Part shown: piece after piece, positions 1 through 38,588 of the stretch
How the letters are laid out: the number at the start of each line of letters is the position of its first letter
How positions within the stretch are numbered: the stretch's first letter is position 1
Assembly: GCA_008704415.1 (NCBI GenBank)
Contig: VXIS01000093.1
Location: forward strand, 1-64,000
Direction of reading: 5' to 3'
Origin: Sphaerosporella brunnea
Lineage: Eukaryota > Ascomycota > Pezizomycetes > Pezizales > Pyronemataceae
Length of the DNA stretch: 64,000 nt
Made by a program: the position numbers and the translations under genes
The notes under the pieces: model-generated
What the model saw: the letters and a program-made list of their open reading frames with translations, nothing else
Told to the model about the DNA's origin: nothing
Database searches by the model: none

Positions 1-1660
1 AAGGTACAAAAAATGGCAGAATGGGTGGAATGATGGAGAACGTCAAGCGGGTATTGATGTATTGCCCTCCCTCACCCATAACGCTCAAAGGCACGTGAGA
101 GAAGCCCCAAATTGTGAGTTTCATTTCAACCTTACAAAGACTTGTCGGTCCGAAAGAACAGGACGATGTGATGATTTCCGGAGAAATGTGCTAATTCGAC
201 GCAGTGTCGCATCGAAGGTGACGAAAACCTGCTTCTCTCCACTCCAGGAGGTTGTAGGGTAACAACATCAGCCTCGAGTGATTTCGAGTACTTACCTCAC
301 GAATTGTGTTGAGCCGTCTTTACACCTGTCCAAAGGAACCCAAAAAACACGTTCACCTGGGAAATCCACTCATCTTATGCGCAAATCATTCAGCTCTACG
401 CATGACGATTTCAGGACAAGGTGACCAAATATTTGCTCGATGTGCTGTCTGCCGTCACTTTTGTCGGCGGCTTGTCGTTCCTGCCTGCACTGCACAGCAC
501 TGATGACATTTGCTCCGCTCATTACACGTTGTGAGCCCGGCCTGCGCGCAAGTCAGTAATTAGGTGTTTTTTTATGACGAAGTGTTTAATGAGGATACTG
601 CATGAGCTGTGATTGATGGAATGAAATATCATAGGTAACTGCTGTTAAGATTGACGGCTGTTCTCAATGCTATTTATGTGTGGCACACTCGAGTAGTTGC
701 TTCGGATCCGGAAAAGAAGCAGAAGCTCGATAAAGGGCAGCTGTTCTCTCCGGCTATCCGGTGCCGGAAGCTGGCTTTTGTTTTTCCCGGTAGGCGAGGT
801 ATTCGGATGCTCAACTCCATGTAAATTGGACACAAGTGAATCACAGTCTGTCACTCATGATCGACACATTACTACTTCGTGGGGAATCTTAAGGGTGTCA
901 GACACACGCATAGGTATCGATCTCTGCCCGAGTGACGGACCCATGTGCCAACGCCTAGTCTCGGACCTAAATGGAACCAGATCAAGAGTCAAGACAAGGT
1001 ATGTAGTGTGTACTCGTACTCTAGGAAGCAGCTACCGGTCAGAAGTCGGTTTGCTTTTTGCGGTCAAGACTCGGTGATAAGCCGCGCAAGTACATGTTCT
1101 GTTGCGGGCTCGTCGCTTTCTTTCGAACGGTGTTTATTGGATGATCGAGGTGTCCACAGAAAACCCGCATCGGCACCACGGATGTCCACCAGGCACTCTT
1201 TGTCCATACCACGGCCCGGTGATCTGGAAGAATTGCTCCTGCACTCTCCCTGGCCGTGCCGTTTGTCTGTCCGTGGGAGACCATCAAGCAGAGATGCGGA
1301 TTCACCGGACACTCATTCGCCCATTACTAAGCCGTGCCCGCCAAGCGCAGCAGCTATGCGTGTGTCACGTTGATGTAGAATCCACCTCGCCGGGGTTAGC
1401 CGTGTCGTGCACAAACCCCGCACTCCTCCTCCGAAAGCAGCCCCAGGAAAAATACGCCTGCCTGTGCCTGCGTGTGACGGTTTTTCCACCACTGCACCCC
1501 CCCGGCTTGCTTTCTGATTCGACCAGAGCCTGGGATCTCTTCGTTCCGTGTGCCTGACCTTCCGCCCATCCGTGCCCGAGGTTCAGAGTCCGACCACCTT
1601 CCGTCCGCTGTCTAAGCCGTTCGTCATTGCTCCCTGGGATTCCCGACCCAGACAGTCCGG
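1..1660. other. Non-coding stretch upstream of IDP
   Basis: I see no supportable gene. The many short ORFs here overlap each other on both strands and resemble nothing I know. Bases about 178-275 differ from the mirror copy (38320-38411) by roughly ten edits, unlike the rest of the arm. The last few hundred bases are the probable promoter and 5' leader of the isocitrate dehydrogenase gene. Confidence 0.6.
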
Positions 1661-1786
1661 ATGGCATTGCCCACTTTATCTTGCAGGTGTCTCTTTCGCG
1701 GCAACCTTTACAATTACTCTCGTGTTATTCCAGTAGCATCATCTGCATACCGTACAAACTTCCTTTCTAGAGGCTTCGCATCAACA

Positions 1787-3530
1787 ATGGCTAGAGAATG
1801 TAAGTCAACGACCTCGAAACCAAATGAAACGTTGGACGAGAATGGTTGTTAATTAAGTACACGCAGTCCAGAAGATCAAGGTCAAGAATCCCGTCGTCGG
1901 TATGCCAATCTCCTCCATTCGGCCGGATGGCTCTGGGCCAGCGGTGTCGGAGCAGTGTTGACCTGTTCGGTAGAGTTGGACGGTGACGAGATGACTCGTG
2001 TCATCTGGCATTCGATCAAGGAGAAGGTTTGTCTCGGAAGCTTGGTTGTGCGCGCAGCGGAAACGAAATACTAATTGATTGCGGTGCAGTTCATCCACCC
2101 GTAAGGAAACCCTCGGCCGAACCTTTTCGTGCATTATTCCCTGGGCAGTTGGCTAAGATCGGTTTTAGTTACCTTGACATCGATCTCAAGTACTACGATT
2201 TGGTACGTGGGCATAAACCTATTCATTGGGATTTTGGCTTTGGTTCAACGGTGAACTAATGCTGGTTTAGGGATTGGAATACCGTGACAAGACCGATGAC
2301 AAGGTCACCGAAGAGGCCGCCGAGGCCATCCTGAAGTACTCTGTTGGTGTGAAGTGCGCTACCATCACTCCCGACGAGGCGCGTGTGAAGGAGTTTAATT
2401 TGAAGAAGGTAAGAAGCTTGCTGTCCTGTTACCTTCTGAGTTTATCCAACTAACTCAATGGGTAGATGTGGCTGAGCCCTAACGGAAGTCTGTTCCTAAA
2501 CAAAATCATGCAAATGAATTTCCTGATCTGACTGAAATACCAGCCATCCGTAACATCCTCGGTGGTACTGTTTTCCGCGAGCCCATTGTCATTGACTCGA
2601 TCCCCCGTCTGGTTCCTGGATGGAAGAAGCCCATCACCATCGGCCGTCATGCCCACGGTGACCAGTATAAAGCCAAGGACTTCGTCGTTCCCGGAGAGGG
2701 AACCGTTGAGCTTGTATACACCCCCAAGAGCGGAGAGCCTGAGCGCATCAAGGTCTTTGACTACAAGGGACCTGGTGTTGCCCTCGCCATGTACAACACT
2801 GACGAGTCCATCACTGGGTTCGCCCACGCTTCCTTCAAGATGGCCCTTGACCGGGGAATTCCCTTGTACATGAGCACCAAGAACACCATTCTCAAGGGCT
2901 ACGATGGACGGTTCAAGGACATCTTTCAGGAGATTTACGAGACCACCTACAAGCAGGACTTTGAGTCCAAGGGGATCTGGTACGAACACCGTCTCATCGA
3001 CGACATGGTTGCCTACATGTTGAAGAGCGAGGGTGGATACGCTATCGCAATGAAGAACTACGACGGTGACGTGCAGAGCGACATCGTTGCTCAGGGATTC
3101 GGCTCTCTGGGATTGATGACCAGTGTGTTGATCACTCCTGACGGCAAGACTTTCGAGTCCGAGGCTGGTTTGTGCCCCGAATCCGTTGCCGTTTTGTTCG
3201 ATGACTAATTTAGCTTCAGCTCACGGAACCGTCACTCGTCATTGGCGCCAGCACCAGCGGGGAGAGGAGACCTCCACCAACCCCATCGCCTCCATTTTCG
3301 CCTGGACCCGGGGTCTCATCCAGCGGGGAAAGCTCGATGGCACTCCCGAGCTGATCACCTTCGCTGAGGCTTTGGAGCAGGCCTGCATTGACACCGTCAA
3401 CAACGGTATCATGACCAAGGACTTGGCCTTGACCCAAGGAAAGACTAGCCGCGACTCCTGGGTCACGACCTCTGGCTACATGGATGCCGTTGAGAAGAGG
3501 TTGAAGGCTTTGATTGAGGCCAAGTTGTAA
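1787..3530 (+). CDS. IDP1: NADP-dependent isocitrate dehydrogenase (left copy)
   Basis: Oxidatively decarboxylates isocitrate to 2-oxoglutarate and makes NADPH. Nine exons can be joined in frame: 1787-1799, 1867-1899, 1974-2026, 2090-2100, 2169-2202, 2271-2408, 2466-2487, 2544-3167, 3220-3530. This gives 412 residues, the usual size of the cytosolic eukaryotic enzyme. Visible family blocks are [20 protein letters not shown] near the N-terminus, [32 protein letters not shown] and [25 protein letters not shown] near the C-terminus. The last three residues are AKL, which fits a PTS1 peroxisomal signal. An in-frame ATG at 1661 adds 42 residues rich in R, S and A and free of acidic residues, like a mitochondrial leader. 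In Aspergillus one idp gene serves several compartments; I infer the same here. An upstream leader exon cannot be excluded. Next gene downstream on the same strand is IFRD. Confidence 0.95.
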
Positions 3531-4191
3531 ATGGGACGGGTTAAAATCTGGGACAAGGCGTTTATGTCAAATTAATAGAAGTATATACGCACATCAGCTA
3601 TGTGTTTGTTGATACCAAGTCTTATGCGACCGATGATTGTCATTTCATGAATTAGATGTTTTCGAATTCTATAAAGCACAAATTCCAGCGTCGAGGGTGC
3701 TAGATTAACTGGATATCACTCAATGTCGAGCCTGAGATGATTCTCGTCTCGTTTTGTATCTCAACCAGTGTTGCAATGTAATCGAGAATCCCCACAGTAA
3801 TGGTGCATCCTAAAGCAAGCAGAGGACCAGAGATCTGGCTCATAGCTTAGTTGGCTGAGCTGACAGCCTGGAGGCGACAGGTTCGAATTTATGCATATGA
3901 AAGTTAGTTGTTCGGAGCATTCAGGTTCTGCAGTTTGTCGATGTAGGAACAGATACTAGACGAAAAAAAAAGTATTCGGACACCTTGTGTAACAACCCCT
4001 AACCCGCGGGTACCCCACCAAAACGCAACAGCGCAACGAAAAATCGTCGGCACAAATTCTTTATGCCGGAAGGGGTTCAACTGCTTAATTTTGAGACTTC
4101 TTGAGTGAGATTCAGAGAAGTTATTGATTTTTCGCTGCGTGGCTTGGCTGTGGGACAGGGTTCTGAGTGTCCGACTTTGCCACTTCGGGAG
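3531..4191. other. Intergenic, contains a tRNA-like patch
   Basis: This holds the 3' end of the IDP transcript and about 500 bp without a recognisable gene. The only notable item is the tRNA-like A-box/B-box pair at 3843-3890, listed separately. The right end borders the long-TIR element. Confidence 0.5.
3843..3890 (+). other. tRNA-like remnant with A box and B box
   Basis: Bases 3843-3854 (TAGCTTAGTTGG) fit the pol III A-box consensus exactly. Bases 3880-3890 (GGTTCGAATTT) fit the B box except for its last two positions. The spacing is tRNA-like. The T-stem and acceptor stem do not pair, so this is not a working tRNA gene. It may be a decayed tRNA or a tRNA-derived SINE head. A mirror copy lies at 34705-34752. 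Confidence 0.3.
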
Positions 4192-5408
4192 TAGAGTCGA
4201 TTACATAACTTTCGGACACGTGACAGGGGGTTTACACCGGCGATATCTCGACAATGAAACATCCAATTGCCATGAGACTGAAAACAAGGGAAGACCAAAT
4301 AGAGAAGAGTAGTTGAGCACAGCGAGCGATGGTTTGGAGAAGATCCTGCTTTTTTCTGGTCGTGGAGAGCGTAGTCAGCTGCAATATTGCGAGCAAAAAA
4401 CTGCGGCATTCTGTAAGATCCAGTAAGTGCGGGAACACCGACGACCCGGCTGTAAGTTGTCTAGAAAATATCTATAGATGGTTCCCAAGGATTAGAGAGC
4501 TTGGGTAAACGGTACGGAGGCATCTTGGGTGGGATAACCTCACCGCCGCCCTGACCGCCTAGCCCCCGTCCCACTCAAGCCAATTACCATCACTTTAGAG
4601 TTTTTCCGGCTTGCTAGGGCCTTGTGCCATGTTATTACGAATTTTGATGGGGCTCGCGGCAGTCGAACCGACTGATTAGCTGCGTACGAAGTCCGCTTAG
4701 GTAAGGCTTCGCCAGGCCGTCAAAATTTAGAAAATCATTCAACTGGGCTCCAGCTGCTCAGATCTCTTCTTTCAATGACTAGAAAGCGATTAGAAACACT
4801 ATAGAGCCCATGGGTGGTATCAGTGGGTTGCAACCACTATCATCCTGCGCCAAGTCGATTTTGCCCTGAGGGGTGATTGCAAAACAGCGGGATTACTGAC
4901 TGAAAGTAGATAAAATAATAGTAACAGGTCTTCTATGGACAGGAGAAGTATTTTTGGCTGTCTGCTTCACTTTATGGCGAGTTTTGAGGAAAGTGGTAGT
5001 TAGGGGCGGCTGGGCGGTCAGGGAAGCGGGGACGGCGGTGATGTTATCCCCATTCTGGATGTCCCCGGACCGTCACACAAGCTCTCTAATCCTTGAGAAC
5101 CATCTATAGATATTTTCTAGACAAGTTACAGTTGAGTTGCAAGTGCTCTCGCTCCTACACAACGTCGCAACCCCCGGCCCCAATAGTGCGGCTGACTACG
5201 CTCTCCGCGGCCAGAGAAAAGCAGGATCTTCTCTAAAACATCGCTCCCTGCACTAATCTACTCTTCTCTATTTGGTCTTCCCTTGTTTTCAGTCTTATGG
5301 CAATTGGATGTTTCGTTGTGGAGATATCGTCGGTGTAAGACCCCCCTGTCACGCTAAACCCTTTTGTCCGAAAGGGCATCGTGTCCGAAAGTTATGTAAT
5401 CGACTCTA
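4192..5408. mobile_element. Long-TIR non-autonomous DNA element (left copy)
   Basis: Both ends begin TAGAGTCGATTACATAACTT (4192 onward, and inverted up to 5408). The inverted arms continue for about 380 bp (4192-4573 against 4997-5408) at roughly 85% identity by eye, with small indels such as the extra segment near 5355-5380. The core (about 4574-4996) has no ORF of note. Shared blocks inside the arms include TCTAGAAAATATCTATAGAT and AAACAAGGGAAGACCAAATA. No clean target duplication is visible. The short word ACTTCG occurs on both flanks, but offset. A fold-back or MULE-like non-autonomous element is the best description. It separates IDP from IFRD. Confidence 0.75.
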
Positions 5409-5663
5409 GGTACTTCGCTTCACATGCACCTTGCCTTACTCTCCCCCCCGCTTCCTGCCTGTGACGTAGTTCTCACGCTGCTTCTCATCTCGCAACTCGC
5501 AACCCCTAACTATCTGCGATCCTACAAGAATACCAGCTGTTGAACAACCACCCCCCATACTTGCTTAACCATCGTCGAGCGACAACTGTACCTAAGCTCC
5601 CCACAACGACTGGTGAATCCCCTGCCTTCTATTCAAACAGCTTCAATAAACACAAATCGAGAA

Positions 5664-7122
5664 ATGTCTGAGCTTCGCCGTCAAGCTCTGACCGTCCCTG
5701 GTAGCGGAAAGACTATTTCTCGGAAAGCACGGTCCCGACAGTCCTCTGCTGCTTCTTCAAGAGTAGCATCCCGTCAAGCATCTCGTGTAAATTCCCGGGT
5801 GGGCAGTAGGGCCAATACCGACGACGAAGGCTCTTCAAGCGATGGCACGTGTTATAGGTTTGTACTCCTTTCCCTCACTTCCTCTTATTTAACCTCGCCT
5901 GCTCGTGATTCTGAGTTTTTGTTTCTCGCTAACTCAAAATGTCTAGCTTGGACTCCTTTGCTGGCAGTGCGCCGACTGTCGAGGAGGAGCTTCCCGATCC
6001 GGGCCAACATTGGAAAGAGGTGCTAGGTGACATGGTCAACCGCATCTGCGATCGCAAGAAGTCTAGCTATCTGGGTCGTGAAGAGGCACTCAGAGAATAC
6101 GCCGCCATCCTCTCGGCGAAATTCGCTAAAGAAGAGATCACTCGCAGAAAGTCCGACATCATCGCATCGTGCTTACACTCCATCAAGGCTCCGCGCACGG
6201 AAAAAGAGTCGCTTTTGGCCGCTAAAGCTCTGGCCCTCACCATCATCACGGACCCAAGCGAAGACGTTTATGATGCTGTTGCCCAAACTTTCAAGCGAGT
6301 CATCACCGACCACGATTCCCATCTACTCAAGTGTGCCCTCATTCACAACCTCAGTGCTGCTGCTTTCTATGGCGGCGCGACAACTGCGGAAACGGAGGGA
6401 ATTATGAATTACCTCCTAGATATAATTGAGTCTGACGGCCACTCTGCTGGCGCGGGTGACGATGCTGGTGTGGTCACTGCAGCTTTGGAGGAATGGGGAT
6501 TCCTCTGCACACAGCTCGAAGACGCAGAAGAGATTACCACCAACTCAATCGACGCCCTAATCGATCAGCTTGAATCCTCGGAGGTGCCGGTACAAGTTGC
6601 TGCTGGAGAAAACATTGCATTACTGTACGAGAAATCATACACGGAGGCTGAAGAGGACGAACTCGATGATGCAACTCAAGCTGGCACGAAGTGGGTCCAA
6701 CGATATAAACCTTACGGCCGGACGGAAGAACTCAAGGAAACTCTGACCGGCATGTCGAGCGGATCGCGTCGGTACCTTTCTAAAAGAAATAAAAAGACGC
6801 AACGCTCAGCGTTCGCGGATATCCTGCATTCCCTCGATGACCCTTTGAAAGGCCCCAGGTTTTCGGAGGCGTTAGACAAGGACGGCGCCGTTAGAGGTTC
6901 ACGGCTTAAGGTCCGTGTACACAAGACCGGCATTCTCAGAGTCGATAAATGGTGGAAGCTTTTGAGGGTGCAGCACTTGAAGCGACTGTTGGGAGGAGGA
7001 TTCCTGACTCATTGGACGGAGAATCCAATTATCTTTGAATCACTCAGGTATGGACCTTGGGCCTTCTGTGAGGTCCCCATGACGAGACTAATTGTCACAG
7101 TTTGTTTGTCGAGCAGTACTAG
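5664..7122 (+). CDS. IFRD-domain (interferon-related developmental regulator) protein, left copy
   Basis: Three exons join in frame: 5664-5857, 5947-7047 and 7101-7122, giving 438 residues. The start chosen is the MSELRRQAL methionine; an in-frame ATG lies 51 bp upstream. The N-terminus (to about residue 65) is a basic S/R-rich tail. It is followed by an alpha-helical IFRD repeat region (for example LGREEALREYAAILSAKFA). The C-terminal block has DKWWKL then LRVQHLKRLLGGGFLTHW, the signature of the family's C-terminal domain. IFRD proteins are linked to transcriptional and translational regulation; the fungal role is little known. The run of four T at 6960-6963 keeps the C-terminus in frame; the mirror copy has three and is frameshifted. 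IDP lies upstream on the same strand and an Emi1-like gene downstream. Confidence 0.88.
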
Positions 7123-8012
7123 ATGTCGATCTTTAATCGCGTAACGACCGGACAAAAAAAGTTGATTGCAATGTGCTTCTGTTTTTTGTTTTGTTTTTTT
7201 CTTTGGGGGCGGCCGGTTTCATTACATATCATCACATCAATCTTTAGGTTTACTTCATTTGCTTTATTTCGAAGAGTTGCATTTCATGGGGATAACGGAG
7301 TTTTTTTTTTTTTTTTTTTCACTTTGCTTGATCCTATTTTCTCTCGGGGATAAAACATCTAAAGCGGTAACATGTAGTGTAGTGGATGAGGATGAGGATG
7401 AGGTTTAAGTGGAACATCTCTCGTTCAATAATATACTTGTTTAGTTTTATGTGCTCGAGCAAGCTGAATCCATCATGACACGATGAGAAGGCGTAAGTAT
7501 GAGCGCCCAGACGTCTCCCCTTGGGGGCGCATCGATATCTTCTCAACCTCGAGCTCGGGGACTTACTCATTCATAGAGGAGCACTCGTCATTGTGACATC
7601 GGATGATGTGCAGCAAGGATGTCGTAGCGTGGTATGTAGATCGCGAAAACACACGGACTTGATCGAGAGCGCCATACTTACATATTTTGGGGACGCCTAT
7701 ACCCGGTGTGGATATAGGTACTCTCCACCAAAGATTTGTTTTCAAAAAGAACATTGATAGTGTGCTTATTTTTGCTCGATCTATCACCCATCAAACTTAG
7801 ATTCTCGAAGTTTCTGCTGGCTACGGAGAATGCAACACCCAGGTTTTAGGGACCAATGGCATTCGGGTGTGAAAAATGGAAGATTCACACTCATCACTCG
7901 ACGGGACAGGGGTATTTTGTATGTGTTAGTAAGCTCAAAATGAATGTCAGACCAACTATCATAGGCGTCCCGAACCACAATTCTCCGGCCGCGAACAACG
8001 ACGGGCGACGAA
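7123..8012. other. Intergenic between IFRD and Emi1-like genes
   Basis: No gene recognised. It contains a long T run near 7300-7319 and a short GATGAG repeat near 7386-7402, probably 3' UTR of IFRD, then the promoter region of the Emi1-like gene. The two arms differ by one base in this interval, most likely in the T run. Confidence 0.5.
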
Positions 8013-8618
8013 ATGTTCTGGAGCAAACCGCCACCACCTTCACCTTCTCCAGCCGAAAATGCAAATCCCGCGCCTCCGCCTCCGCCTCCGCTGCCCCAAA
8101 CTCGCGAAGAGCAAGCGGATTCGGAGCTCGCAGCGCTGATAGCAGAACTAGATCGCGAACACACGGAGAACGCACGCGCGACAGAGCGCAACAAACGCGT
8201 GCCCGCGGCCAACGACGACAAGACGGGCCTGCCGACAGAAATGAACTGCCTCACCGCTTTCGACGAAATGTTCTACTGCTACTCCTTCGGCGGCCAGTTC
8301 CTGAACATCTACCGCTACGGCTCCTTCCGCGACTGCTCCGAAAAGTCGGCCGATTGGAGGTTCTGCATGAAAACCAAAGTGCGCGGTGAGGTGGCTAGGC
8401 GGGTGAGTTATTTTTTGTTTCGTTTTATCCACCCTACGGGGGTAGCTGACGCGCGCCACGTCCGGAAATAGGCAATGATCTTGGCTAGGAATAAGGAGAA
8501 GGCGGCGAAGTATAAAGTCGGCAAGAGTAGTGAGGATGTGTGGAACGTCAGAAAAGAGCCGGTAAAGGACGCATTCAACGGCAATTTCGAGGACTTGAGG
8601 GATACCATATCAGGCTGA
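8013..8618 (+). CDS. EMI1: Emi1-like twin-CX9C protein (DUF3128 family), left copy
   Basis: Two exons (8013-8402 and 8472-8618) give 178 residues. The N-terminus is proline-rich (about residues 5-30). It is followed by a helical segment and then the family core TEMNCLTAFDEMFYCYSF...FRDCSEKSADWRFCM. That core holds two CX9C motifs (C-LTAFDEMFY-C and C-SEKSADWRF-C) predicted to form a helical hairpin with two disulfides. Such proteins are usually oxidised by Mia40 in the mitochondrial intermembrane space. Yeast EMI1 is named for early meiotic induction and affects mitochondrial respiration. The start is the first ATG before the proline tract; the splice keeps VARR|AMILARNKEKAAKY in frame. The molecular role is unknown. 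Confidence 0.9.
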
Positions 8619-9534
8619 GCTATGAAGTAGCTACGTATTTCTACCTGCTTTTCGACCGGCTCAAGAACTTTGTACGATAGATAGACGAAGGAACGCGTAT
8701 GCAGATTAGGAGAGTACATACTCGGGTATGGAAGCGATAATTGAAAAACTACAGGGGTTCTGAATCAGCGGGGCGAGGTCTGGAGGTCAGTACATAGTGA
8801 ACGATAAAATGCCAAGACGTCATGATGTTGACGTCGGTGAAGGCGGAATTCCAAAAGAGGAGGCCGGAGCGCCACAACGCCACTGGAGCAAGCCGCGACG
8901 ACAAACCCATCAACAAACACTTCGTTCTCAACTAAATGTCATCTAAATTGGATGTATAATGAAAGCTAATGATGTGAAGAGTTCGACTACGCGAACAGGA
9001 GGAGAATTCAATCGCTTCTTTGTGGGCTGTGCGGTATCCGTTATTTAGCGCTGATCTTCAATTGATTTTTTGTTCCACCTCGTGCATCACCTTGTGCTGT
9101 TCAGCTGTACATATTTTTTTTTCGATCAAGATCCTTTTCCGATTCGAACTTCCCATACCCGAGTGCATAGCGCATTGCGATCATGCGCAAGCTCCTTCAT
9201 CGAAGTTTTGATTGATTCCCCGCACGGACATTAAAACATTGCAGAGCAATTCCTCTGCTATTCATTGGAATTGCGTTCCCCAAAACCAAAAGACCGCCAT
9301 CCCAAATAGCCATCCAAAAAAAACCCCCCAGAAAACGTGGTATCGAACGAAAAAAAAAACCCAATATCTGGCCAACCTGACCCATGGTCGCAATACGAAA
9401 GGGAGAAATAGCAAAAGCAGAAATAACATAAACGAGCGTCAGATTGGAAGCTGAATTGTTGAAAGCAGATATCAACAGATGGCACTGTTTCCACTGTTGC
9501 TACTCCATGATGGCGCCAAATTACAGCAACTAAT
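8619..9534. other. Intergenic between convergent Emi1-like and OPY2-like genes
   Basis: About 900 bp with no recognisable gene. It is a convergent 3' region: Emi1-like ends at 8618 on plus and OPY2-like ends at 9535 on minus. It contains A-rich and C-rich short runs near 9318-9362. Nothing else is supportable. Confidence 0.5.
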
Positions 9535-11027
9535 TTACTGAAACTTCTCCAATTTGTCTACAGAGTGAGAGTCATCGAAAGGGCTGACAGTTCGTCTCGC
9601 AGGCTCCGACGTGTCAATCAACTTCGAGGAGCGCTTCCCGCCCGCAAAATTCAAGGAGAGCCTGTTATTGCCAGCCGTTGCTATATTGGAACTGTTGGAT
9701 AGCGGGATAGCTTCAAGAGTCGTGGAGTGTGCGTCAGAAAATGGCGACCCCGCCTCCATATCGGTGATACAGCTTGATATACCGCTGGAGCGCTGAGACA
9801 GAAGGGCATTGCCCCGATGGCCGGGAATCAGGTCCGACGAATCGTCAGAGTCATAATTAACAGACGAAGTGCTGTGGTTCTCGTGCTCCACATGAGATCG
9901 GCCTGGGACTACCCTTTTCTGAGCCTGTTGAATGACTTCGTCGGAGCCATTCTTGATATTCATGCGATTGAGAAACGTTGACCCGACAGAAAATGTCGGG
10001 CTGGGAGGTACAGTTTCAAGCCCCGAAGGGCCTTTGCCGCGTGCAGACTGACCGCTAGTGCTGATAAACAATGCAGGAACGGGCGGAATGGATTCGGACG
10101 ATCCCGGATTCGGTGAACTAGTGCTCGATGTTGCAATGCTGCTTCCACCCTTCACTGTGACCACCGCTGCCTTGCCCGCGCGAATGATATTTGGCTGCGA
10201 GACGACAGCGTTTCCACCATAGATTGTAGTCGCAATTGAAGATCGATTGTCCACCGTGATCATCGAACCCCGGAGTAGATCATCAGCCGCGAATTGTATG
10301 TCGATATTCGGCGAGCGAGGAAATTGGGAGCCCATGGGCGAGTCCGAATAGGGAAGAGGCGGTATGGGCGGTATCAGATGAGCGGGAGTAGTAGGACCCG
10401 AGCGGTTTGTAACTCCAGGAATATATGCGATCTGAATTACATTGGAGGCTCGAGTGCGAACTGTGGAAGCGATGGAAGCAACCGTATGTGTTGATGCCTA
10501 CAATCACATTAGCTTGGGCTGTCGATATGAAGCTTATGTTTGTCGCGGGGTAGTACTCTTGCGCTCTTCAGCATCCCAAAATCGTTTTCCTTTTCGGCTG
10601 CGGTAGCAGCCATCGACATGCGGCGCATGTTCTTCTTCGCGCGACTCCTCCAAACGAAAAATCCCAGTATCGCGAGCGCAAGCAAACCTCCAATACAGGC
10701 ACCGGCAATTGCGCCCCCTGAAATTCCTGAACCCGATGTTTTGATGTCGGTACATATCACACGAGCGCATTGGACGCAGCTCTGAGCCGTGAGTTCGCAC
10801 CGTTGGGTAGTCGAACAGTTGCAGACGGGGAGATCGGTCGGGCAGTTTTGTATGCAGCCACCGTCACGGGCGAGGATGAGCGACCCAGGAACTGATATCA
10901 CGAGTCAGCGCGAGCGTGGCGGGGGATCTAGATGATACGCACTGGCCGCTACACTCTGAGAAAGCGCGAAGTTCAACATCACCACTGTCGAGAATGTGGT
11001 TGACGACCATGCCGAAAAGCGCGCCAT
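9535..11027 (-). CDS. OPY2: OPY2-like plasma membrane anchor, left copy
   Basis: Three exons on minus (11027-10943, 10891-10557, 10497-9535) give 460 residues. Residues about 1-28 form a signal peptide. A short extracellular Cys-rich module follows, with C-x3-C-x6-C-x-C spacing and CVQCARVIC near its end. Then comes one membrane segment of small and hydrophobic residues (GAIAGACIGGLLALAILGFF), a basic RSRAKKNMRR stop-transfer, and a long disordered Ser/Pro-rich cytoplasmic tail containing ASTHTVASIASTVRTRASNV. This is the layout of OPY2, which in yeast recruits Ste50 to the membrane for HOG and filamentous-growth MAPK signalling. The cytosolic partner here is inferred. The second intron uses a GTACTA donor, chosen because it restores the conserved tail block. 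Confidence 0.88.
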
Positions 11028-12144
11028 GGTTCTAACAGTAAAGCGATAAAGAAGGCTTATGAAAGTAAAACGGATGGAAAAACGGTTTTGCGATATCGCG
11101 ATGAAACGTGAAGGGTTTGAAATGCGACAAGCGGACCGACCGGCGGCACGAAGAGAACGAATCAATCAAAGACGTGAAAGTTGAAGCTGAACGCGACGGG
11201 AAAAGAAAAAAAAAATTGACTAAAATGAATGACGTCGGGTCGGATAGTCGTGGCAGCAGCGAGGGACAAAGGAAGAGATGTCGGTGGGTGAGTGGTGATG
11301 GTGGGTGTAGTGTGGTGGACTTGGTGGTCCGGGCCCGCAGTGGTTGGATGTTTGCGGTCTATGGCGCCGAAAGGGGTTCAGTCCAAGCGTCCCTCGATGG
11401 CGAGCGACATAGAAATTCGGGTTTTTGCGGAACGACAGGATGCGTGATTTGGGGAGCGGTGATGATATTGATGTGTTTCCGTGTGTTGCTCTGTGAGTTG
11501 GTTTGGGGGGGGGCAAGAGGGAAATGTACCTGCGTCTTGATTGCAAGGAACGGTTTCATTCTTCGTACCTATTGCTACCTATGCTTGCGTGTTCTCCAAT
11601 TACAACCCTGAACGTCAGCAAATTGATTTACCAAGCTAACTTTCACTCAGCCACAGGAGGAAAGCAACCTGGACTTTTGTAGGTTGTATGTAGGAGCGAG
11701 TGAGGCTGGATGCTTGGACGTGGATAGACCTCAGGAGTTCGACCCGCTCTTTCCAATCAACCAACCTTTCCAACTACCATCGCGTCTCCACGACATTTCA
11801 TACGGCACGCTGTTGATGTACAAGTCTACAGTCGAAAGCTACTTGGTAATACTCCGGGTATCTACCTCTAGTTACTATGGAGCACATTGACAGTGTAATT
11901 ACTACCGGATACGAACGGGACTGTAGGAAACCTATCGCTACGTCTCGATCGATTTCCGATACTCCGCCGGCGATGCAATGCGGTTCAAGCAACGTCGCCC
12001 CGCGGAGGCGGGCAACGTGAACCCACTGTTTGCTAGTCGTGACCCGTAATGCTTCATCTCCATAATGCCTCGTAAACCAAACAAAGAACTGACTGCGTTT
12101 CGCCATTGGCGCGATGCAACACACGCTGTGAGTGTTTCAATGTA
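11028..12144. other. OPY2 upstream region and flank of the Tc1/mariner element
   Basis: Contains the probable OPY2 promoter (minus strand). One minus ORF at 11798-12124 (108 residues) ends a few bases from the transposon insertion. It resembles nothing I know and may be a truncated gene or chance. The G run near 11505-11513 differs by one base between the arms. Confidence 0.4.
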
Positions 12145-13475
12145 CAGTTGGGGAACTTGGGTGACGAGATGCGTCCGGTCACCGATGCCTTACAACGGGA
12201 AAACAACCAACGCTAGAACGCCAGAACGCCGGGGAAAAAAAAAAAAAAAACACCCAGCGACGTGATGGAGGGTTTATTTACAAGCGCTCAAACCTTTGTA
12301 GTTCCTCCCTTCGTCTCCAGTACGGCTTTTGCCCGGTTAGCCATACTATCTATGATACCGTGCACCTTGTCCCAATCAAGCTCCTCCCACGACCGCTGCG
12401 CCAGCTCTATGAACTCCTCCTCCTCAGTGTGGGCGCGAGTAGAGGATTGCTCATCTTCGAATCAATCTTGGCGTCAAGGAGCGGCCAGAGATTCTCGATA
12501 GGGTTGAGGTCAGGGGAGATTGGAGGCCACTCAAGGCGAGTGAGACCGTATGCCTCACAAACCTGCTGGGTCTGCTTGGACGTATGTATCTTGGCACCAT
12601 TCTCAATAGTTGGATGGTCCTCAGGACCACCAGGAAGACTGTGAGTGAATGACACCATGCATGGTTTGACGAATTCCTCAATGTATTGCGTCGAATCCAC
12701 ACCCAAACTGTCCCGCTTGTGTTTCCGCTCCTTCGGAGTTTTTTTGCGGAATATAACTAAAGGCCTGTGGGCTCCAAAGGTGATGGCGGCAGCGGAAAGT
12801 ACAAAAAAGCGTCCAGAGGTGAAAGTTGGCTGGAGATCGCGAGGCTGGAACGCCCTTGCGATACCGGGTGGACGTCGGACTAATCGTGTACGGCGAACAC
12901 AACCCAAACTCACAAGCTTCTCATCGCAGTACACCACTTTCCTCCACTATTGGACCTCCCACCTCTTACGCTTGAGGCACCAACGGTACTACTCCCTCAT
13001 CGTCGCACCCAGCCAGGTCTTTCTCCTGGCACGGCGGCAGCACCAGCGCTTGTTGAGTAGGTACCATCCCAGCACCCGGGGATTGGACCTGCTCTGCAAC
13101 GTTGGCCAAAGTCACAGACGGATTTTGCATAACAACTCTCTTGGCGTGTTGTAGATCCCTCTCCGACATCTTTTTTGGTGGTGCGGTTCGCAGGTCTTGT
13201 TTAATATTGTGCTTGGTGATCCACTGCTAGTAGATCCTCTGCGCCTGTGATCGGGACACCCCGATTTCCTTCTCAATTTGGGCGAAACTCTTGCCATCTT
13301 TTCTTTTAGAAACTACACCAATTCTCTCGTCGAGTGTCGCTTCTCTTCGCTTTCCTGTCGTTTTAACGATCGGCATGGTTGTTGTTGAGAACCGAGAGAG
13401 AATTCTGTCGCCCATCTACTTGTGATGCAACCGCGGTCGGCACCCGGCCATCTCATCACCCCAGTTCCCCGACTG
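12145..13475 (-). mobile_element. Tc1/mariner-type transposon, inactive (left copy)
   Basis: The element is 1331 bp and flanked by TA on both sides (12143-12144 and 13476-13477), the target duplication of this superfamily. The terminal inverted repeats start CAGTTGGGGAACTTGGGTGA at the left and CAGTCGGGGAACTGGGGTGA when the right end is read inward, then continue imperfectly. It carries one broken transposase on minus. A long A run (about 12236-12250) lies just inside the left end. Confidence 0.9.
12288..13376 (-). pseudogene. Tc1/mariner transposase, broken by a stop and frame changes (left copy)
   Basis: The N-terminal part starts MPIVKTTGKRREATLDERI and has a helix-turn-helix region (SFAQIEKEIGVSRSQAQRIY). 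It is cut by TAG just after RIY (13227 on minus), followed by QWITKHNIKQ in the same frame. Later segments continue in other frames. The DDE-superfamily block WPPISPDLNPIENLWPLLDAK (about 12467-12530) is present. The natural C-terminus, ending ETKGGTTKV at 12288, is in yet another frame from about 12430. The mirror copy has the same lesions, so they predate the duplication or are common to both copies. Confidence 0.85.
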
Positions 13476-13509
13476 TAATTCAAGTATTAACTGTGCACTC
13501 AGGCTAACG

Positions 13510-13860
13510 AGTGGTTGCCGAAGACGCAGTGCTATGAGTGCACTTACTACGGTCAAAACGGTACGAAAAGTACCTCCCGGCAACTTCAGCACTTGAAAGA
13601 GTATACCCCATACATGTGGCATCTGCAAGATATTGGATGCGGGGTGGAGCGGGCCGCCGGCGGGACCAATATTGGGGCAGCATCCACAGATTCTCGGCAA
13701 CTGCCTGGGGTTGCTGCCGGCTCATTGATCCGCCTCCCCACAGAAGCAATTTCCAAAAGCAATCACGGAAAAAGCAAACAAGCTTTCCTTCATACACATC
13801 AACCGCAGGGTGCTGGATCGCCACGCTGTAGGCGATGCTAGCTTCACAAACTGGCATAAA
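13510..13860 (+). pseudogene. BED-like zinc finger fragment of a hAT-type transposase
   Basis: The plus frame reads ANEWLPKTQCYECTYYG then NGTKSTSRQLQHLKEYTPYMW. This looks like the metal-binding C-x2-C plus H...(C to Y) layout of BED fingers at the N-terminus of fungal hAT transposases; the last Cys appears lost. The frame ends at 13841 without a catalytic core. It directly abuts the Tc1/mariner element (13475), suggesting the latter jumped into older transposon debris. Confidence 0.45.
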
Positions 13861-14810
13861 TGCGATGACGATACACTGTTGGAGGAGGAGTTATTGTGGC
13901 TTGAAAGGTTTGAGAACTGTGTTGTCTTTTCACCGGACTGGGTTCAGCGAGTGCCGCCGTAGTAATGTAGAGTATTTTGTGCGTTCGTGAGGTGTCTGAT
14001 AATGGCCCCGGGCCTGCGCTGTAGAATTCCTATCATGATGTCAGTCCACGGATTGCTCGGCGGTATGCGATACGTATCAATAAAAACTCGCCTTGTACGC
14101 TGCCGTACGCTACCGTTGCTGACAGCTACCAGTCCATCCCTACGGAAGTGTGAGTGATAGACTGTGACTGACGAGAGCATAGTGGCATTTTTTCGTCACG
14201 GGCCTGCATGCGCCGCTAGCATACTCAGTCTCGGCGGCCATGTGTGTGGTGTCGCTTGTATATCTATGACTATCAAGTATTAAGGCAACCGTTTTCGGAG
14301 ATCATGAATCCAGAGCCCGGCAAGAACCCGTTATCGTGTATAAATAATAGGGATCCGTTGGAACAAAAGGTTAGCTGGCTTCGCATCAATCCTCAATGCA
14401 GAACGGTACCTACTGACTGCAACCGTCTTGGCGGTGCGCAGACCTGTTGGGTTCATCGAGTGATTCACCATGATATACTAAGTTGAGAGAGCTGCATGTC
14501 GGCGAAAACCAACCTCCCTTTTCTCCCTCTATCTCTTCCTTTCTTCTTTCTCATCCAAAACAACACCACCAACCCGATAACACTTCATACTTCTCCCATT
14601 CTCATCATGCTATCGCTATCGTACACAGGCTGTTTACGTGTTGAGACCGTGGTTGAGGCGACGATGAGTAGCTGGTGGTTATGATCAACCGTACTCCGGA
14701 TTCTGTCTTGGTGCCCAGGGCCCGATGGTTCTTAAGTTGGAGACTATAGTGCGCTCATAGCCAGCTCAAGTGGTGTGCTTTGTGTTGGAATATGTGTCCT
14801 GACATAATGT
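13861..14810. other. Gene-poor stretch in transposon debris
   Basis: No gene recognised. It contains a CT-rich patch at about 14508-14570 and scattered short ORFs that look accidental. It is likely decayed repeat sequence between two hAT-type fragments. Confidence 0.4.
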
Positions 14811-16013
14811 GGGTGTGGGTAGGGGTCGATTATTACGGGTCGATTGCGTTCGTGTGGGTTAGGAAACCTAAAATATGGGCGCTTGAGAGAGGTATAAAAC
14901 TCTGTATGACACCTTCGCTGCCTGGAAAGAAGAGTCATCCGCGTTCTGCGACTCTTGAAAGTGAGATAGTAGGTGCCGGCCACGGTGTATATAAACCCCC
15001 CCCCATTCGCCGGCTTCTGCCAATAAACATACAGTTCAACATGCCTCGACAGCGCGATCCTGAGTTGCTTGCAAACTTCAAAATTCAAGGGGCACCGCCT
15101 GGAGCCAAGGTAAGCCTGAGATTTCCTACACGCTGGCATAGCTACTCTCAGTACTAACTTGAGTCAGTGTGAAAAAATGCAGTGCCGCCACTGTGGGTGG
15201 CAGGGAGTGAGGAACACAGCTCGCGCAAAAGTTCACCTGAGGGCCGAGTGTCAACAATACCGCAACTTCCTACAATTTGCTGGACGAGAAGGAGAGCTGG
15301 ACAACAAGTTTCGATCCAATCACCGTGGTTTATGGGGAGCCCAACACCATGGACGAGGCTGAAGTTGTGCGTGGGTTTATTATCAATCACTGTAAAAATC
15401 CGGAGCTAGGTCAAATAGCCAGTACCGCAGCTAGCTGTCAAGACCTTTCGTCGTCAAAGCTCGGTAGCTTGCTGCCAGTAATGCGCCAGAGCTGGCTGGA
15501 CTGGCGCTTAGTCTTCTACACACCCTTTCCAACTCAGTGCCTTCAAAGCGGTCTTTTCTACTAGAAGCCTCATCCACGACAAAAAGAGAAATCGTCTCAC
15601 TGTGGAGCACGCTGACAGGCTATCCTATACATACCTAGGTACATATCAACGGGCGAGTTCCTTCAGGGAACCACGCACTTGAGATCAAATTGAAGAGAAG
15701 GAATTACTAGATATCGAGGAGCAGCTAATGGATCTTGACTCGAAGATGAGTTGTAGGCTCTCACGCACCCATCGGGGCTCTCGCCGCCGACCTGACGTCG
15801 AAAAAGCCTAAAAAAAAAACCGAATCACAGGTATCACTCGGTCTCGGCGCGAACTTTATTTTTTCACTGCAGTTTTAAACCTTAACTCGAAACGTAAAGT
15901 AATATGATTTCGGCAAGATATGAGATCGCACCAAATCCTTATCTTATCTTATCTAGCACCCCTCTTGATCTGGTGATCTCATATCTCACTGAAATCGACC
16001 CCTAGGTGTGGGT
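14811..16013 (+). mobile_element. Internally deleted hAT-type element (left copy)
   Basis: An inverted pair GTGTGGGTAGGGGTCGA (about 14813-14829) and TCGACCCCTAGGTGTG (15995-16010) brackets N- and C-terminal transposase pieces. A related end, TCGACCCTAGTGTGGG, occurs again near 16778. A TATA-like GGTATAAAAC lies at 14891-14900 upstream of the coding piece. The ends are inferred from the shared TAGGGGTCGA core and no 8 bp target duplication was confirmed. Confidence 0.5.
15041..15800 (+). pseudogene. hAT transposase fragment: BED finger plus C-terminal dimerisation region
   Basis: The first exon MPRQRDPELLANFKIQG (15041-15109) splices over 15110-15166 to CEKMQCRHCGWQGV, then HLRAECQQYRNFL, a CxxC...HxxxC BED-type finger. 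The frame then shifts. A second piece (15277-15564) and a third after about 15560 follow. The third reads FSTRSLIHDKKRNRLTVEHAD then IEEKELLDIEEQLMDLDSK, resembling the hAT C-terminal dimerisation domain. The catalytic core of several hundred residues is absent, so this is a deletion derivative and cannot encode a working enzyme. Confidence 0.6.
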
Positions 16014-16281
16014 TCGATTAGGATAACTTTCTGGTACTCTATATAAGAATATGTAAACTTTCACGCTCTAGATTACAGCGCTGGACTCGCTGCTGGAGAA
16101 AGGTATAAAACTTTGTTTTAGTCGGACAGAAGTGTGATCATCACTGTGATGCGGCCTCAATATCAAGAAGCTTGGGGGTCCACGAGAGAGTGCCACTGAA
16201 CAAACCCAGAGGCAGGCTTGTAGCCGGTGTGCCAATATCGCAGCCGTCAAAGCCCTGTGTGGGAACTTGCAGTCGACCCTC

Positions 16282-21060: not shown

Positions 21061-21285
21061 TACCGTATAAACTCGGATATAAGATACCCCCCCCCCCAGA
21101 CTTGGTTAGCGGCAAATAATTGCCTTATATGGAAGTTAATGTCTCCAAAAGGAAGTCAGTAAAAAACAAAAACCCTCCTTTGTAAGCAAAAACCCTCCTT
21201 TGTAAGCTTAAAAGTTTCCCTATAAGGCAATTATTTGCCGCTAACCAAATCTGGGGGGGTATCTTATATCCGAGTTTATACGGTA
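21061..21285. mobile_element. 225 bp MITE (right copy)
   Basis: Mirror of 17320-17544, with the same inverted ends (TACCGTATAAACTCGG) and the same internal tandem 20 bp repeat. Confidence 0.8.
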
Positions 21286-21964: not shown

Positions 21965-22323
21965 TCTCAACGTCAGGGCTCCCACCGCCGCTGGCACCGC
22001 CACTCCCACCATGCCGCTCTCTAGATTGAACCCAATGCTATCTTCCACAAACTCGTCTTCTCGTTCCACCAACTCCTCTTCAATTGCGATCAATTATTTT
22101 TCTTCAACTTGGTCCCAGGTGGCGGAAGAAGCGTTCCAGAATGCGTAGGTTTACATGGATGTAGGCTCGCTTGTCAGCTCGCTCTGCTGTAAGGCGATTT
22201 CCCTTTTTATCATGATTGAGGTTTCTAGTGGAAAATGAATGCTCCGAAGGAACAGAGTTAGAAAATGTGTAGAAGGCTGAGTGCAAGCTCAGCAAGATCT
22301 TGTTATTTCTTCCCAAAGATTAA
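21965..22323 (-). pseudogene. hAT C-terminal fragment (right copy)
   Basis: Mirror of the fragment at 16282-16640. The dimerisation-domain frame FSTRNLNHDKKGNR is intact between stops at 22104-22316. Confidence 0.6.
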
Positions 22324-25087: not shown

Positions 25088-25121
25088 CGTTAGCCTGAGT
25101 GCACAGTTAATACTTGAATTA

Positions 25122-26452
25122 CAGTCGGGGAACTGGGGTGATGAGATGGCCGGGTGCCGACCGCGGTTGCATCACAAGTAGATGGGCGACAGAATTCTCT
25201 CTCGGTTCTCAACAACAACCATGCCGATCGTTAAAACGACAGGAAAGCGAAGAGAAGCGACACTCGACGAGAGAATTGGTGTAGTTTCTAAAAGAAAAGA
25301 TGGCAAGAGTTTCGCCCAAATTGAGAAGGAAATCGGGGTGTCCCGATCACAGGCGCAGAGGATCTACTAGCAGTGGATCACCAAGCACAATATTAAACAA
25401 GACCTGCGAACCGCACCACCAAAAAAGATGTCGGAGAGGGATCTACAACACGCCAAGAGAGTTGTTATGCAAAATCCGTCTGTGACTTTGGCCAACGTTG
25501 CAGAGCAGGTCCAATCCCCGGGTGCTGGGATGGTACCTACTCAACAAGCGCTGGTGCTGCCGCCGTGCCAGGAGAAAGACCTGGCTGGGTGCGACGATGA
25601 GGGAGTAGTACCGTTGGTGCCTCAAGCGTAAGAGGTGGGAGGTCCAATAGTGGAGGAAAGTGGTGTACTGCGATGAGAAGCTTGTGAGTTTGGGTTGTGT
25701 TCGCCGTACACGATTAGTCCGACGTCCACCCGGTATCGCAAGGGCGTTCCAGCCTCGCGATCTCCAGCCAACTTTCACCTCTGGACGCTTTTTTGTACTT
25801 TCCGCTGCCGCCATCACCTTTGGAGCCCACAGGCCTTTAGTTATATTCCGCAAAAAAACTCCGAAGGAGCGGAAACACAAGCGGGACAGTTTGGGTGTGG
25901 ATTCGACGCAATACATTGAGGAATTCGTCAAACCATGCATGGTGTCATTCACTCACAGTCTTCCTGGTGGTCCTGAGGACCATCCAACTATTGAGAATGG
26001 TGCCAAGATACATACGTCCAAGCAGACCCAGCAGGTTTGTGAGGCATACGGTCTCACTCGCCTTGAGTGGCCTCCAATCTCCCCTGACCTCAACCCTATC
26101 GAGAATCTCTGGCCGCTCCTTGACGCCAAGATTGATTCGAAGATGAGCAATCCTCTACTCGCGCCCACACTGAGGAGGAGGAGTTCATAGAGCTGGCGCA
26201 GCGGTCGTGGGAGGAGCTTGATTGGGACAAGGTGCACGGTATCATAGATAGTATGGCTAACCGGGCAAAAGCCGTACTGGAGACGAAGGGAGGAACTACA
26301 AAGGTTTGAGCGCTTGTAAATAAACCCTCCATCACGTCGCTGGGTGTTTTTTTTTTTTTTTTCCCCGGCGTTCTGGCGTTCTAGCGTTGGTTGTTTTCCC
26401 GTTGTAAGGCATCGGTGACCGGACGCATCTCGTCACCCAAGTTCCCCAACTG
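25122..26452 (+). mobile_element. Tc1/mariner-type transposon, inactive (right copy)
   Basis: Mirror of 12145-13475. TA flanks lie at 25120-25121 and 26453-26454. The ends CAGTCGGGGAACTGGGGTGA and CAGTTGGGGAACTTGGGTGA (inverted) are present. Confidence 0.9.
25221..26309 (+). pseudogene. Tc1/mariner transposase, broken (right copy)
   Basis: Mirror of 12288-13376. It has the same in-frame TAG after RIY (25368-25370), the same later frame changes and the same SPDLNPIENLW block near 26080-26115. Both copies share all visible lesions. Confidence 0.85.
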
Positions 26453-33185: not shown

Positions 33186-34403
33186 TAGAGTCGATTACAT
33201 AACTTTCGGACACGATGCCCTTTCGGACAAAAGGGTTTAGCGTGACAGGGGGGTCTTACACCGACGATATCTCCACAACGAAACATCCAATTGCCATAAG
33301 ACTGAAAACAAGGGAAGACCAAATAGAGAAGAGTAGATTAGTGCAGGGAGCGATGTTTTAGAGAAGATCCTGCTTTTCTCTGGCCGCGGAGAGCGTAGTC
33401 AGCCGCACTATTGGGGGCCGGGGGTTGCGACGTTGTGTAGGAGCGAGAGCACTTGCAACTCAACTGTAACTTGTCTAGAAAATATCTATAGATGGTTCTC
33501 AAGGATTAGAGAGCTTGTGTGACGGTCCGGGGACATCCAGAATGGGGATAACATCACCGCCGTCCCCGCTTCCCTGACCGCCCAGCCGCCCCTAACTACC
33601 ACTTTCCTCAAAACTCGCCATAAAGTGAAGCAGACAGCCAAAAATACTTCTCCTGTCCATAGAAGACCTGTTACTATTATTTTATCTACTTTCAGTCAGT
33701 AATCCCGCTGTTTTGCAATCACCCCTCAGGGCAAAATCGACTTGGCGCAGGATGATAGTGGTTGCAACCCACTGATACCACCCATGGGCTCTATAGTGTT
33801 TCTAATCGCTTTCTAGTCATTGAAAGAAGAGATCTGAGCAGCTGGAGCCCAGTTGAATGATTTTCTAAATTTTGACGGCCTGGCGAAGCCTTACCTAAGC
33901 GGACTTCGTACGCAGCTAATCAGTCGGTTCGACTGCCGCGAGCCCCATCAAAATTCGTAATAACATGGCACAAGGCCCTAGCAAGCCGGAAAAACTCTAA
34001 AGTGATGGTAATTGGCTTGAGTGGGACGGGGGCTAGGCGGTCAGGGCGGCGGTGAGGTTATCCCACCCAAGATGCCTCCGTACCGTTTACCCAAGCTCTC
34101 TAATCCTTGGGAACCATCTATAGATATTTTCTAGACAACTTACAGCCGGGTCGTCGGTGTTCCCGCACTTACTGGATCTTACAGAATGCCGCAGTTTTTT
34201 GCTCGCAATATTGCAGCTGACTACGCTCTCCACGACCAGAAAAAAGCAGGATCTTCTCCAAACCATCGCTCGCTGTGCTCAACTACTCTTCTCTATTTGG
34301 TCTTCCCTTGTTTTCAGTCTCATGGCAATTGGATGTTTCATTGTCGAGATATCGCCGGTGTAAACCCCCTGTCACGTGTCCGAAAGTTATGTAATCGACT
34401 CTA
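33186..34403. mobile_element. Long-TIR non-autonomous DNA element (right copy)
   Basis: Mirror of 4192-5408, with both TAGAGTCGATTACATAACTT ends present. There is one base of net length difference from the left copy between the two ends. Confidence 0.75.
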
Positions 34404-35064: not shown

Positions 35065-36808
35065 TTACAACTTGGCCTCAATCAAAGCCTTCAACCTCTT
35101 CTCAACGGCATCCATGTAGCCAGAGGTCGTGACCCAGGAGTCGCGGCTAGTCTTTCCTTGGGTCAAGGCCAAGTCCTTGGTCATGATACCGTTGTTGACG
35201 GTGTCAATGCAGGCCTGCTCCAAAGCCTCAGCGAAGGTGATCAGCTCGGGAGTGCCATCGAGCTTTCCCCGCTGGATGAGACCCCGGGTCCAGGCGAAAA
35301 TGGAGGCGATGGGGTTGGTGGAGGTCTCCTCTCCCCGCTGGTGCTGGCGCCAATGACGAGTGACGGTTCCGTGAGCTGAAGCTAAATTAGTCATCGAACA
35401 AAACGGCAACGGATTCGGGGCACAAACCAGCCTCGGACTCGAAAGTCTTGCCGTCAGGAGTGATCAACACACTGGTCATCAATCCCAGAGAGCCGAATCC
35501 CTGAGCAACGATGTCGCTCTGCACGTCACCGTCGTAGTTCTTCATTGCGATAGCGTATCCACCCTCGCTCTTCAACATGTAGGCAACCATGTCGTCGATG
35601 AGACGGTGTTCGTACCAGATCCCCTTGGACTCAAAGTCCTGCTTGTAGGTGGTCTCGTAAATCTCCTGAAAGATGTCCTTGAACCGTCCATCGTAGCCCT
35701 TGAGAATGGTGTTCTTGGTGCTCATGTACAAGGGAATTCCCCGGTCAAGGGCCATCTTGAAGGAAGCGTGGGCGAACCCAGTGATGGACTCGTCAGTGTT
35801 GTACATGGCGAGGGCAACACCAGGTCCCTTGTAGTCAAAGACCTTGATGCGCTCAGGCTCTCCGCTCTTGGGGGTGTATACAAGCTCAACGGTTCCCTCT
35901 CCGGGAACGACGAAGTCCTTGGCTTTATACTGGTCACCGTGGGCATGACGGCCGATGGTGATGGGCTTCTTCCATCCAGGAACCAGACGGGGGATCGAGT
36001 CAATGACAATGGGCTCGCGGAAAACAGTACCACCGAGGATGTTACGGATGGCTGGTATTTCAGTCAGATCAGGAAATTCATTTGCATGATTTTGTTTAGG
36101 AACAGACTTCCGTTAGGGCTCAGCCACATCTACCCATTGAGTTAGTTGGATAAACTCAGAAGGTAACAGGACAGCAAGCTTCTTACCTTCTTCAAATTAA
36201 ACTCCTTCACACGCGCCTCGTCGGGAGTGATGGTAGCGCACTTCACACCAACAGAGTACTTCAGGATGGCCTCGGCGGCCTCTTCGGTGACCTTGTCATC
36301 GGTCTTGTCACGGTATTCCAATCCCTAAACCAGCATTAGTTCACCGTTGAACCAAAGCCAAAATCCCAATGAATAGGTTTATGCCCACGTACCAAATCGT
36401 AGTACTTGAGATCGATGTCAAGGTAACTAAAACCGATCTTAGCCAACTGCCCAGGGAATAATGCACGAAAAGGTTCGGCCGAGGGTTTCCTTACGGGTGG
36501 ATGAACTGCACCGCAATCAATTAGTATTTCGTTTCCGCTGCGCGCACAACCAAGCTTCCGAGACAAACCTTCTCCTTGATCGAATGCCAGATGACACGAG
36601 TCATCTCGTCACCGTCCAACTCTACCGAACAGGTCAACACTGCTCCGACACCGCTGGCCCAGAGCCATCCGGCCGAATGGAGGAGATTGGCATACCGACG
36701 ACGGGATTCTTGACCTTGATCTTCTGGACTGCGTGTACTTAATTAACAACCATTCTCGTCCAACGTTTCATTTGGTTTCGAGGTCGTTGACTTACATTCT
36801 CTAGCCAT
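35065..36808 (-). CDS. IDP1: NADP-dependent isocitrate dehydrogenase (right copy)
   Basis: Mirror of 1787-3530 on minus, with all nine exons and splice sites retained and the same 412-residue product ending in AKL. The in-frame upstream ATG for a mitochondrial-type leader is at 36934. Mirror offsets are constant (38595) across the gene, so no net indel separates the copies. Confidence 0.95.
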
Positions 36809-38588
36809 TGTTGATGCGAAGCCTCTAGAAAGGAAGTTTGTACGGTATGCAGATGATGCTACTGGAATAACACGAGAGTAATTGTAAAGGTTGCCGCGAA
36901 AGAGACACCTGCAAGATAAAGTGGGCAATGCCATCCGGACTGTCTGGGTCGGGAATCCCAGGGAGCAATGACGAACGGCTTAGACAGCGGACGGAAGGTG
37001 GTCGGACTCTGAACCTCGGGCACGGATGGGCGGAAGGTCAGGCACACGGAACGAAGAGATCCCAGGCTCTGGTCGAATCAGAAAGCAAGCCGGGGGGGTG
37101 CAGTGGTGGAAAAACCGTCACACGCAGGCACAGGCAGGCGTATTTTTCCTGGGGCTGCTTTCGGAGGAGGAGTGCGGGGTTTGTGCACGACACGGCTAAC
37201 CCCGGCGAGGTGGATTCTACATCAACGTGACACACGCATAGCTGCTGCGCTTGGCGGGCACGGCTTAGTAATGGGCGAATGAGTGTCCGGTGAATCCGCA
37301 TCTCTGCTTGATGGTCTCCCACGGACAGACAAACGGCACGGCCAGGGAGAGTGCAGGAGCAATTCTTCCAGATCACCGGGCCGTGGTATGGACAAAGAGT
37401 GCCTGGTGGACATCCGTGGTGCCGATGCGGGTTTTCTGTGGACACCTCGATCATCCAATAAACACCGTTCGAAAGAAAGCGACGAGCCCGCAACAGAACA
37501 TGTACTTGCGCGGCTTATCACCGAGTCTTGACCGCAAAAAGCAAACCGACTTCTGACCGGTAGCTGCTTCCTAGAGTACGAGTACACACTACATACCTTG
37601 TCTTGACTCTTGATCTGGTTCCATTTAGGTCCGAGACTAGGCGTTGGCACATGGGTCCGTCACTCGGGCAGAGATCGATACCTATGCGTGTGTCTGACAC
37701 CCTTAAGATTCCCCACGAAGTAGTAATGTGTCGATCATGAGTGACAGACTGTGATTCACTTGTGTCCAATTTACATGGAGTTGAGCATCCGAATACCTCG
37801 CCTACCGGGAAAAACAAAAGCCAGCTTCCGGCACCGGATAGCCGGAGAGAACAGCTGCCCTTTATCGAGCTTCTGCTTCTTTTCCGGATCCGAAGCAACT
37901 ACTCGAGTGTGCCACACATAAATAGCATTGAGAACAGCCGTCAATCTTAACAGCAGTTACCTATGATATTTCATTCCATCAATCACAGCTCATGCAGTAT
38001 CCTCATTAAACACTTCGTCATAAAAAAACACCTAATTACTGACTTGCGCGCAGGCCGGGCTCACAACGTGTAATGAGCGGAGCAAATGTCATCAGTGCTG
38101 TGCAGTGCAGGCAGGAACGACAAGCCGCCGACAAAAGTGACGGCAGACAGCACATCGAGCAAATATTTGGTCACCTTGTCCTGAAATCGTCATGCGTAGA
38201 GCTGAATGATTTGCGCATAAGATGAGTGGATTTCCCAGGTGAACGTGTTTTTTGGGTTCCTTTGGACAGGTGTAAAGACGGCTCAACACAATTCGTGAGG
38301 TAAGTACTCGAAATCACTCGGCTGATGTTGTTACCCTACTCTGGAGTTGGAGAGAAGCATTTTCGTCAACCTTCGATGCGACACCTCGTCGAATGTAGAC
38401 ATTTCTCCCGGAAATCATCACATCGTCCTGTTCTTTCGGACCGACAAGTCTTTGTAAGGTTGAAATGAAACTCACAATTTGGGGCTTCTCTCACGTGCCT
38501 TTGAGCGTTATGGGTGAGGGAGGGCAATACATCAATACCCGCTTGACGTTCTCCATCATTCCACCCATTCTGCCATTTTTTGTACCTT

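Follow-up and report, generated by a model that had tools for sequence, protein, structure and literature searches.

The inverted repeat that opens this window (the whole stretch of DNA analysed, 64,000 nucleotides of Sphaerosporella brunnea) is, with high confidence, a technical fold-back at the end of a contig that was carried into the assembly, and we count a palindrome made during DNA amplification as one form of it. An artefact is the most likely origin because the palindrome takes up the extreme end of the contig and turns around a noise-like centre. The original prediction, made from the letters, had kept two explanations live, such an artefact and a very recent breakage-fusion type duplication; our analysis lent support to the first, through the position at the contig end, the noise-like centre, the indel-only differences between the arms and three sister fold-backs in the same assembly, while the second gained none beyond the near-identity of the arms.

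Extent of the palindrome and sequence at its turn

When the arms were compared by blastn, window bases 1-18650 proved to be the reverse complement of 38588-19954 (99.80% identity over 18,659 columns, with 4 mismatches and 33 gap positions); this was the sole long inverted match, and 18.6 kb of inverted sequence at such identity cannot be due to chance. The continuous reverse-complement relation read earlier from the letters is thereby borne out, as is the drift of its mirror sum by 16, from 38589 at base 1 to 38605 (18640+19965). Position 38588, which had been given as the outer limit of the palindrome, is no demonstrated edge of a duplication and merely mirrors contig base 1, since the left arm runs to the contig end: the window comprises bases 1-64000 of contig C634 (141,791 b), one of 640 contigs in an assembly of 50,565,648 b, and its left arm reaches contig base 1 while the right arm joins the remaining contig (103 kb more). 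Flanking sequence is present to the right of the right arm, and the left arm stops at contig base 1. One arm reads as the reverse strand of the locus in the other, with nothing beyond it on the far side, which is the arrangement of a fold-back. A genome search with 1 kb of the right arm (36000-37000), which sampled one place in the arm, matched the two arms and no third copy.

Some features of the neighbouring sequence deserve mention in their own right. A 2.2 kb repeat (window 38530-40718), which starts within the right arm 58 b short of its outer edge, matches contig C316 (34750-36975) at 87% identity; the repeat's edge may be where the contig broke. C316 was considered as an allelic copy of the locus and rejected, as this 87% segment is all that blastn found in common between it and the first 84 kb of C634. 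A sub-threshold match to Mog1 (20.3 bits, cut-off 27.4) belongs to a frame that crosses the right arm's outer edge (38366-38836), and a C1-tetrahydrofolate synthase-type gene (41633-44086) is divided between two open frames, a split that could stem from an intron or from a consensus indel.

The arms are separated by a spacer of ~1.3 kb made up of two blocks (Table 1), and its composition lies outside that of all other windows tested in the 64-kb window. The G+T content of the first block compares with a maximum of 63.5% in 1232 other overlapping windows of 479 b, and every one of the 609 other overlapping windows compared with the second block contains a run longer than 3; adjacent bases are equal at 11.7% of positions in that block, against a minimum of 20.8% in the same 609 windows. 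Milder cases were found in one 400-b window of contig C633 (from 4801), where the adjacent-equal fraction is 0.168 (0.117 in the 823-b block), and in C316, which has a single G/T run of 41 b and a single A/C run of 42 b; mild forms of such composition thus occur in ordinary sequence. A genome search with 19100-22100 returned no match to the 823-b block among the 40 of 163 candidates scored, and the matches listed outside the arms' own copies fall on two dispersed arm repeats (from query position 1952). Phage records held no match to this block either, Rfam (gathering threshold) and ARAGORN found nothing in the window, and there are 0 copies of TTAGGG or CCCTAA in 18641-19960, so no telomere repeat stands at the turn. 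On composition and on the lack of a match among the scored candidates, the test of a biological spacer between the arms came out against one. Low-quality or unmappable sequence is common, though not required, at the turn of a fold-back, and 18651-19953 fits that description by composition and run length; judged by its composition, the centre is probably basecalling noise.

Table 1. Positions of the arms, centre and genes in the window, and of the fold-backs in other contigs of the assembly
Feature	Contig	Position	Strand	Remarks
Left arm	C634	1..18650	+	Contig base 1 to turn; taken as folded-back copy
Right arm	C634	19954..38588	-	Continuous with rest of contig
Scrambled patch near contig tip	C634	179..274	+	21 of 42 columns differing between arms (MAFFT)
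Iso_dh (isocitrate/isopropylmalate dehydrogenase-type)	C634	2483..3527	+	Pfam; left copy, two overlapping open frames
IFRD, left copy	C634	5933..7144	+	Pfam; frame agrees with protein P0001
IFRD, right copy	C634	31630..32655	-	Frame broken; one T fewer in run than in left arm
PANTS-like domain frame, left copy	C634	7965..8468	+	Pfam
320-aa frame without Pfam match and sub-threshold Opy2 frame, left copy	C634	9538..10904	-	
DDE_3 transposase fragment, left copy	C634	12410..12946	-	Pfam; mirror 25660-26190
G/T block, noise-like	C634	18641..19119	+	479 b, 98.1% G+T
Homopolymer-depleted noise-like block	C634	19120..19942	+	823 b, longest run 3
Fold-back	C440 (24,517 b)	1-887 vs 24483-23592		99.0%
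Fold-back	C440	888-22817 on itself		85.4%, 886 mismatches, 2494 gaps
Fold-back	C596 (10,548 b)	1-6363 on itself		86.4%, 350 mismatches, 554 gaps
Fold-back	C3 (135,720 b)	525-13626 on itself		94.9%, 132 mismatches, 548 gaps

One point that counts against an artefact is that no convincing adapter was found in the centre, although fold-backs do not require a retained adapter. This search used three adapter sequences, on both strands, against four fold-back centres (the window, C596, C440 and C3), i.e., 24 tests with 200 shuffles each. The smallest numbers of shuffles scoring as high came from the window (6/200, ONT top, minus strand), C596 (2, ONT top, minus; 6, PacBio, plus) and C440 (6/200, ONT bottom, plus); among 24 tests these are counted neither as matches nor as evidence either way.

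Differences between the arms and the genes they carry

A MAFFT alignment of the arms has 42 differing columns, 21 at 179-274, 17 at 275-18639 and 4 at 18640-18651. The 17 columns of the long middle part are all indels, with 0 substitutions; they form 15 events, 12 of which (counted from the MAFFT listing) change the length of a run by one, and with runs collapsed two differences are left in 275-18623. In 14 of these 17 columns it is the right arm that lacks the base. Substitution columns are confined to the scrambled patch (190-247) and the inner edge (18643 and 18651), and the earlier statement that the arms display no C-to-T asymmetry therefore holds. An old duplication would be expected to carry substitutions, and an indel-only pattern is that expected of long-read consensus error.

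The arms had been described as carrying four intact-looking genes twice. The count is about right for host genes, based on a Pfam scan of 29 of the 38 stop-to-stop frames of the left arm (IFRD being scanned from its ATG), which also gave the sub-threshold Opy2 match at 10512-10904; intactness fails for IFRD, which is broken in the right arm, where it measures 341 aa against 401 aa in the left. Protein P0001 was predicted from short contigs, of no more than 1,854 b, that belong to a different source, which we assume to be independent of this assembly; it is identical to the left-arm IFRD over 92% of the query, including residues past the shift. Because P0001 matches the left arm beyond the shift, the right-arm frameshift is most likely a consensus error. 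This probable error sits in the arm that is joined to the rest of the contig, a point against an artefact; polishing must have acted on both arms. The best named relatives of the IFRD protein are those of Geopyxis carbonaria (70%), Morchella sextelata (67%), Tuber brumale (60%) and Pyronema domesticum (60%), on which basis we take the DNA to come from an ascomycete of pezizomycete type.

Each arm also contains repeats of its own. A self-complementary element of ~225 b (window 17320-17544 and 21061-21285) has many copies in the genome, which make up most of the 85 matches listed, and is probably a short inverted-repeat transposable element. In addition, blastn identified in each arm (4219-5353 and 33241-34376) an inverted repeat pair of ~350 b (79%) lying ~440 b apart.

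Fold-backs in other contigs of the assembly

Long fold-backs were present in three of 14 other contigs (C440, C596 and C3), in each case at or no more than 525 b from the contig end, with at most 10 kb of one end read for most of the 14, so that longer fold-backs would escape. TTAGGG repeats led to the choice of six of these contigs, including C440 and C596; one was taken for its match to the window, and seven, C3 included, regardless of content. Gaps outnumber mismatches in all three fold-backs, the main parts of which are 85-95% alike; the arms in the window, at 99.8%, are closer than these, which again requires that both were polished. TTAGGG repeats stand at the tips of other contigs, and C440 and C596 turn in or beside such repeats, their G-rich side noisy and their C-rich side cleaner. 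In C3 the centre is clean, and ~20 b separate the arms.

Two further results count against an artefact. None of the centres of C440, C596 and C3 was flagged for noise of the window's type (G/T and run-poor blocks), and, among the matches listed, none of 12 random contig starts had an opposite-strand second copy in its own contig. These 12 were searched in full or nearly so, from 60 starts drawn and 20 fetched; 83 b of a 13th contig start had no listed match, and the pieces of C70 and C638 are dispersed repeats, with 40 candidates scored out of 281 and 1139, respectively, where a diverged mate could be missed. As none of the 12 showed a mate, fold-backs seem to affect a minority of contig ends.

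Origin of the palindrome and its consequences

In the technical reading that we prefer, a long read from a fragment of nuclear DNA would have reached, near base 19954, the point where its molecule ended and, after a noisy stretch, continued into the complementary strand, as nanopore complement follow-on would allow; an equivalent fold-back made during library preparation is the alternative to this step. The assembler would then have retained the folded-back part as the end of C634, and polishing by reads mapping to both arms would have rendered these near-identical. A read passing into the complement at the end of a molecule would turn at telomere repeats, as in C440 and C596. We infer the platform (nanopore), the noise as a product of basecalling, the behaviour of the assembler and the polishing, and likewise the exact origin, be it complement follow-on or a chimera of library preparation or amplification.

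Two published accounts describe comparable artefacts. Nanopore sequencing may pass from the first strand into its complement and so generate fake palindromic reads, of which about two thirds in rDNA cases lose quality abruptly near the turn (PMC8559705). According to PMC12870357, fold-backs make up ~0.55-0.6% of ONT gDNA reads, no systemic fold-backs are reported for three PacBio samples, and assembly graphs are said to be liable to tangling by fold-backs. The same account gives one example whose arms lie ~2 kb apart with unmapped sequence in between, notes that more than 11 b intervene in typically fewer than half of fold-back reads, and describes the intervening sequence in K562 samples as enriched in simple repeats. 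Its authors favour library preparation over basecalling as the likely source, and eight cDNA reads that they inspected had no notable signal difference around the breakpoint; these views and observations do not favour a stall picture for the turn. The palindrome in the window resembles the ONT gDNA fold-back reads of both accounts, as they are described there, in being a near-perfect inverted copy of a locus with one turning point, and differs from them in that it is known from an assembled contig, not from a raw read, and in that no adapter was found.

A smaller part of our confidence in a technical origin, and an unlikely one on its own, goes to a palindrome of amplification, in which DNA would have been amplified before sequencing (e.g., by phi29) and a self-primed strand would have yielded an inverted chimera, to be read faithfully afterwards. 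PMC6218980 and PMC13265396 report palindromic reads from DNA that had undergone whole-genome amplification, and the MDA palindromes described there are, like the one in the window, chimeras that hold inverted copies of a single locus and cause difficulty in long-read assembly. The clean C3 centre is what a chimera made as DNA would be expected to have, and it has the look of a junction copied as DNA. The window's centre, noise-like over 1.3 kb, does not; a clean short junction is absent there, and amplification leaves unexplained both this centre and the turns at telomere repeats in C440 and C596.

We regard as very improbable a real, recent inverted duplication of the breakage-fusion type at this chromosomal place. 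Long near-identical arms without RIP-like changes would be seen in a very young duplication as well; against it stand the noise-like centre, the extension of an arm to contig base 1, differences that are indels and mostly run lengths, a frameshift contradicted by P0001 and the sister fold-backs in the same assembly. A true event would have to be an inverted duplication in a filamentous ascomycete that is very young, spans 18.6 kb or more, comprises housekeeping genes, is free of RIP and has a 1.3 kb spacer unreadable to sequencers; to this we give hardly any credence. The least probable of all is a natural hairpin end or a palindromic extrachromosomal element: an inverted arm that ends a contig could resemble a hairpin terminus, but these arms hold ordinary nuclear-type genes (Iso_dh, IFRD) and go on into 103 kb more of contig, and TTAGGG stands at the tips of other contigs and not in the centre of the window.

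Where contig ends fold back (C634, C440, C596 and C3), the gene counts, duplications and repeat content of this assembly are inflated, and a false recent duplication could be mistaken for evidence on RIP or on chromosome breakage. The assembly needs cleaning of its fold-backs, and the palindrome is chiefly a warning.
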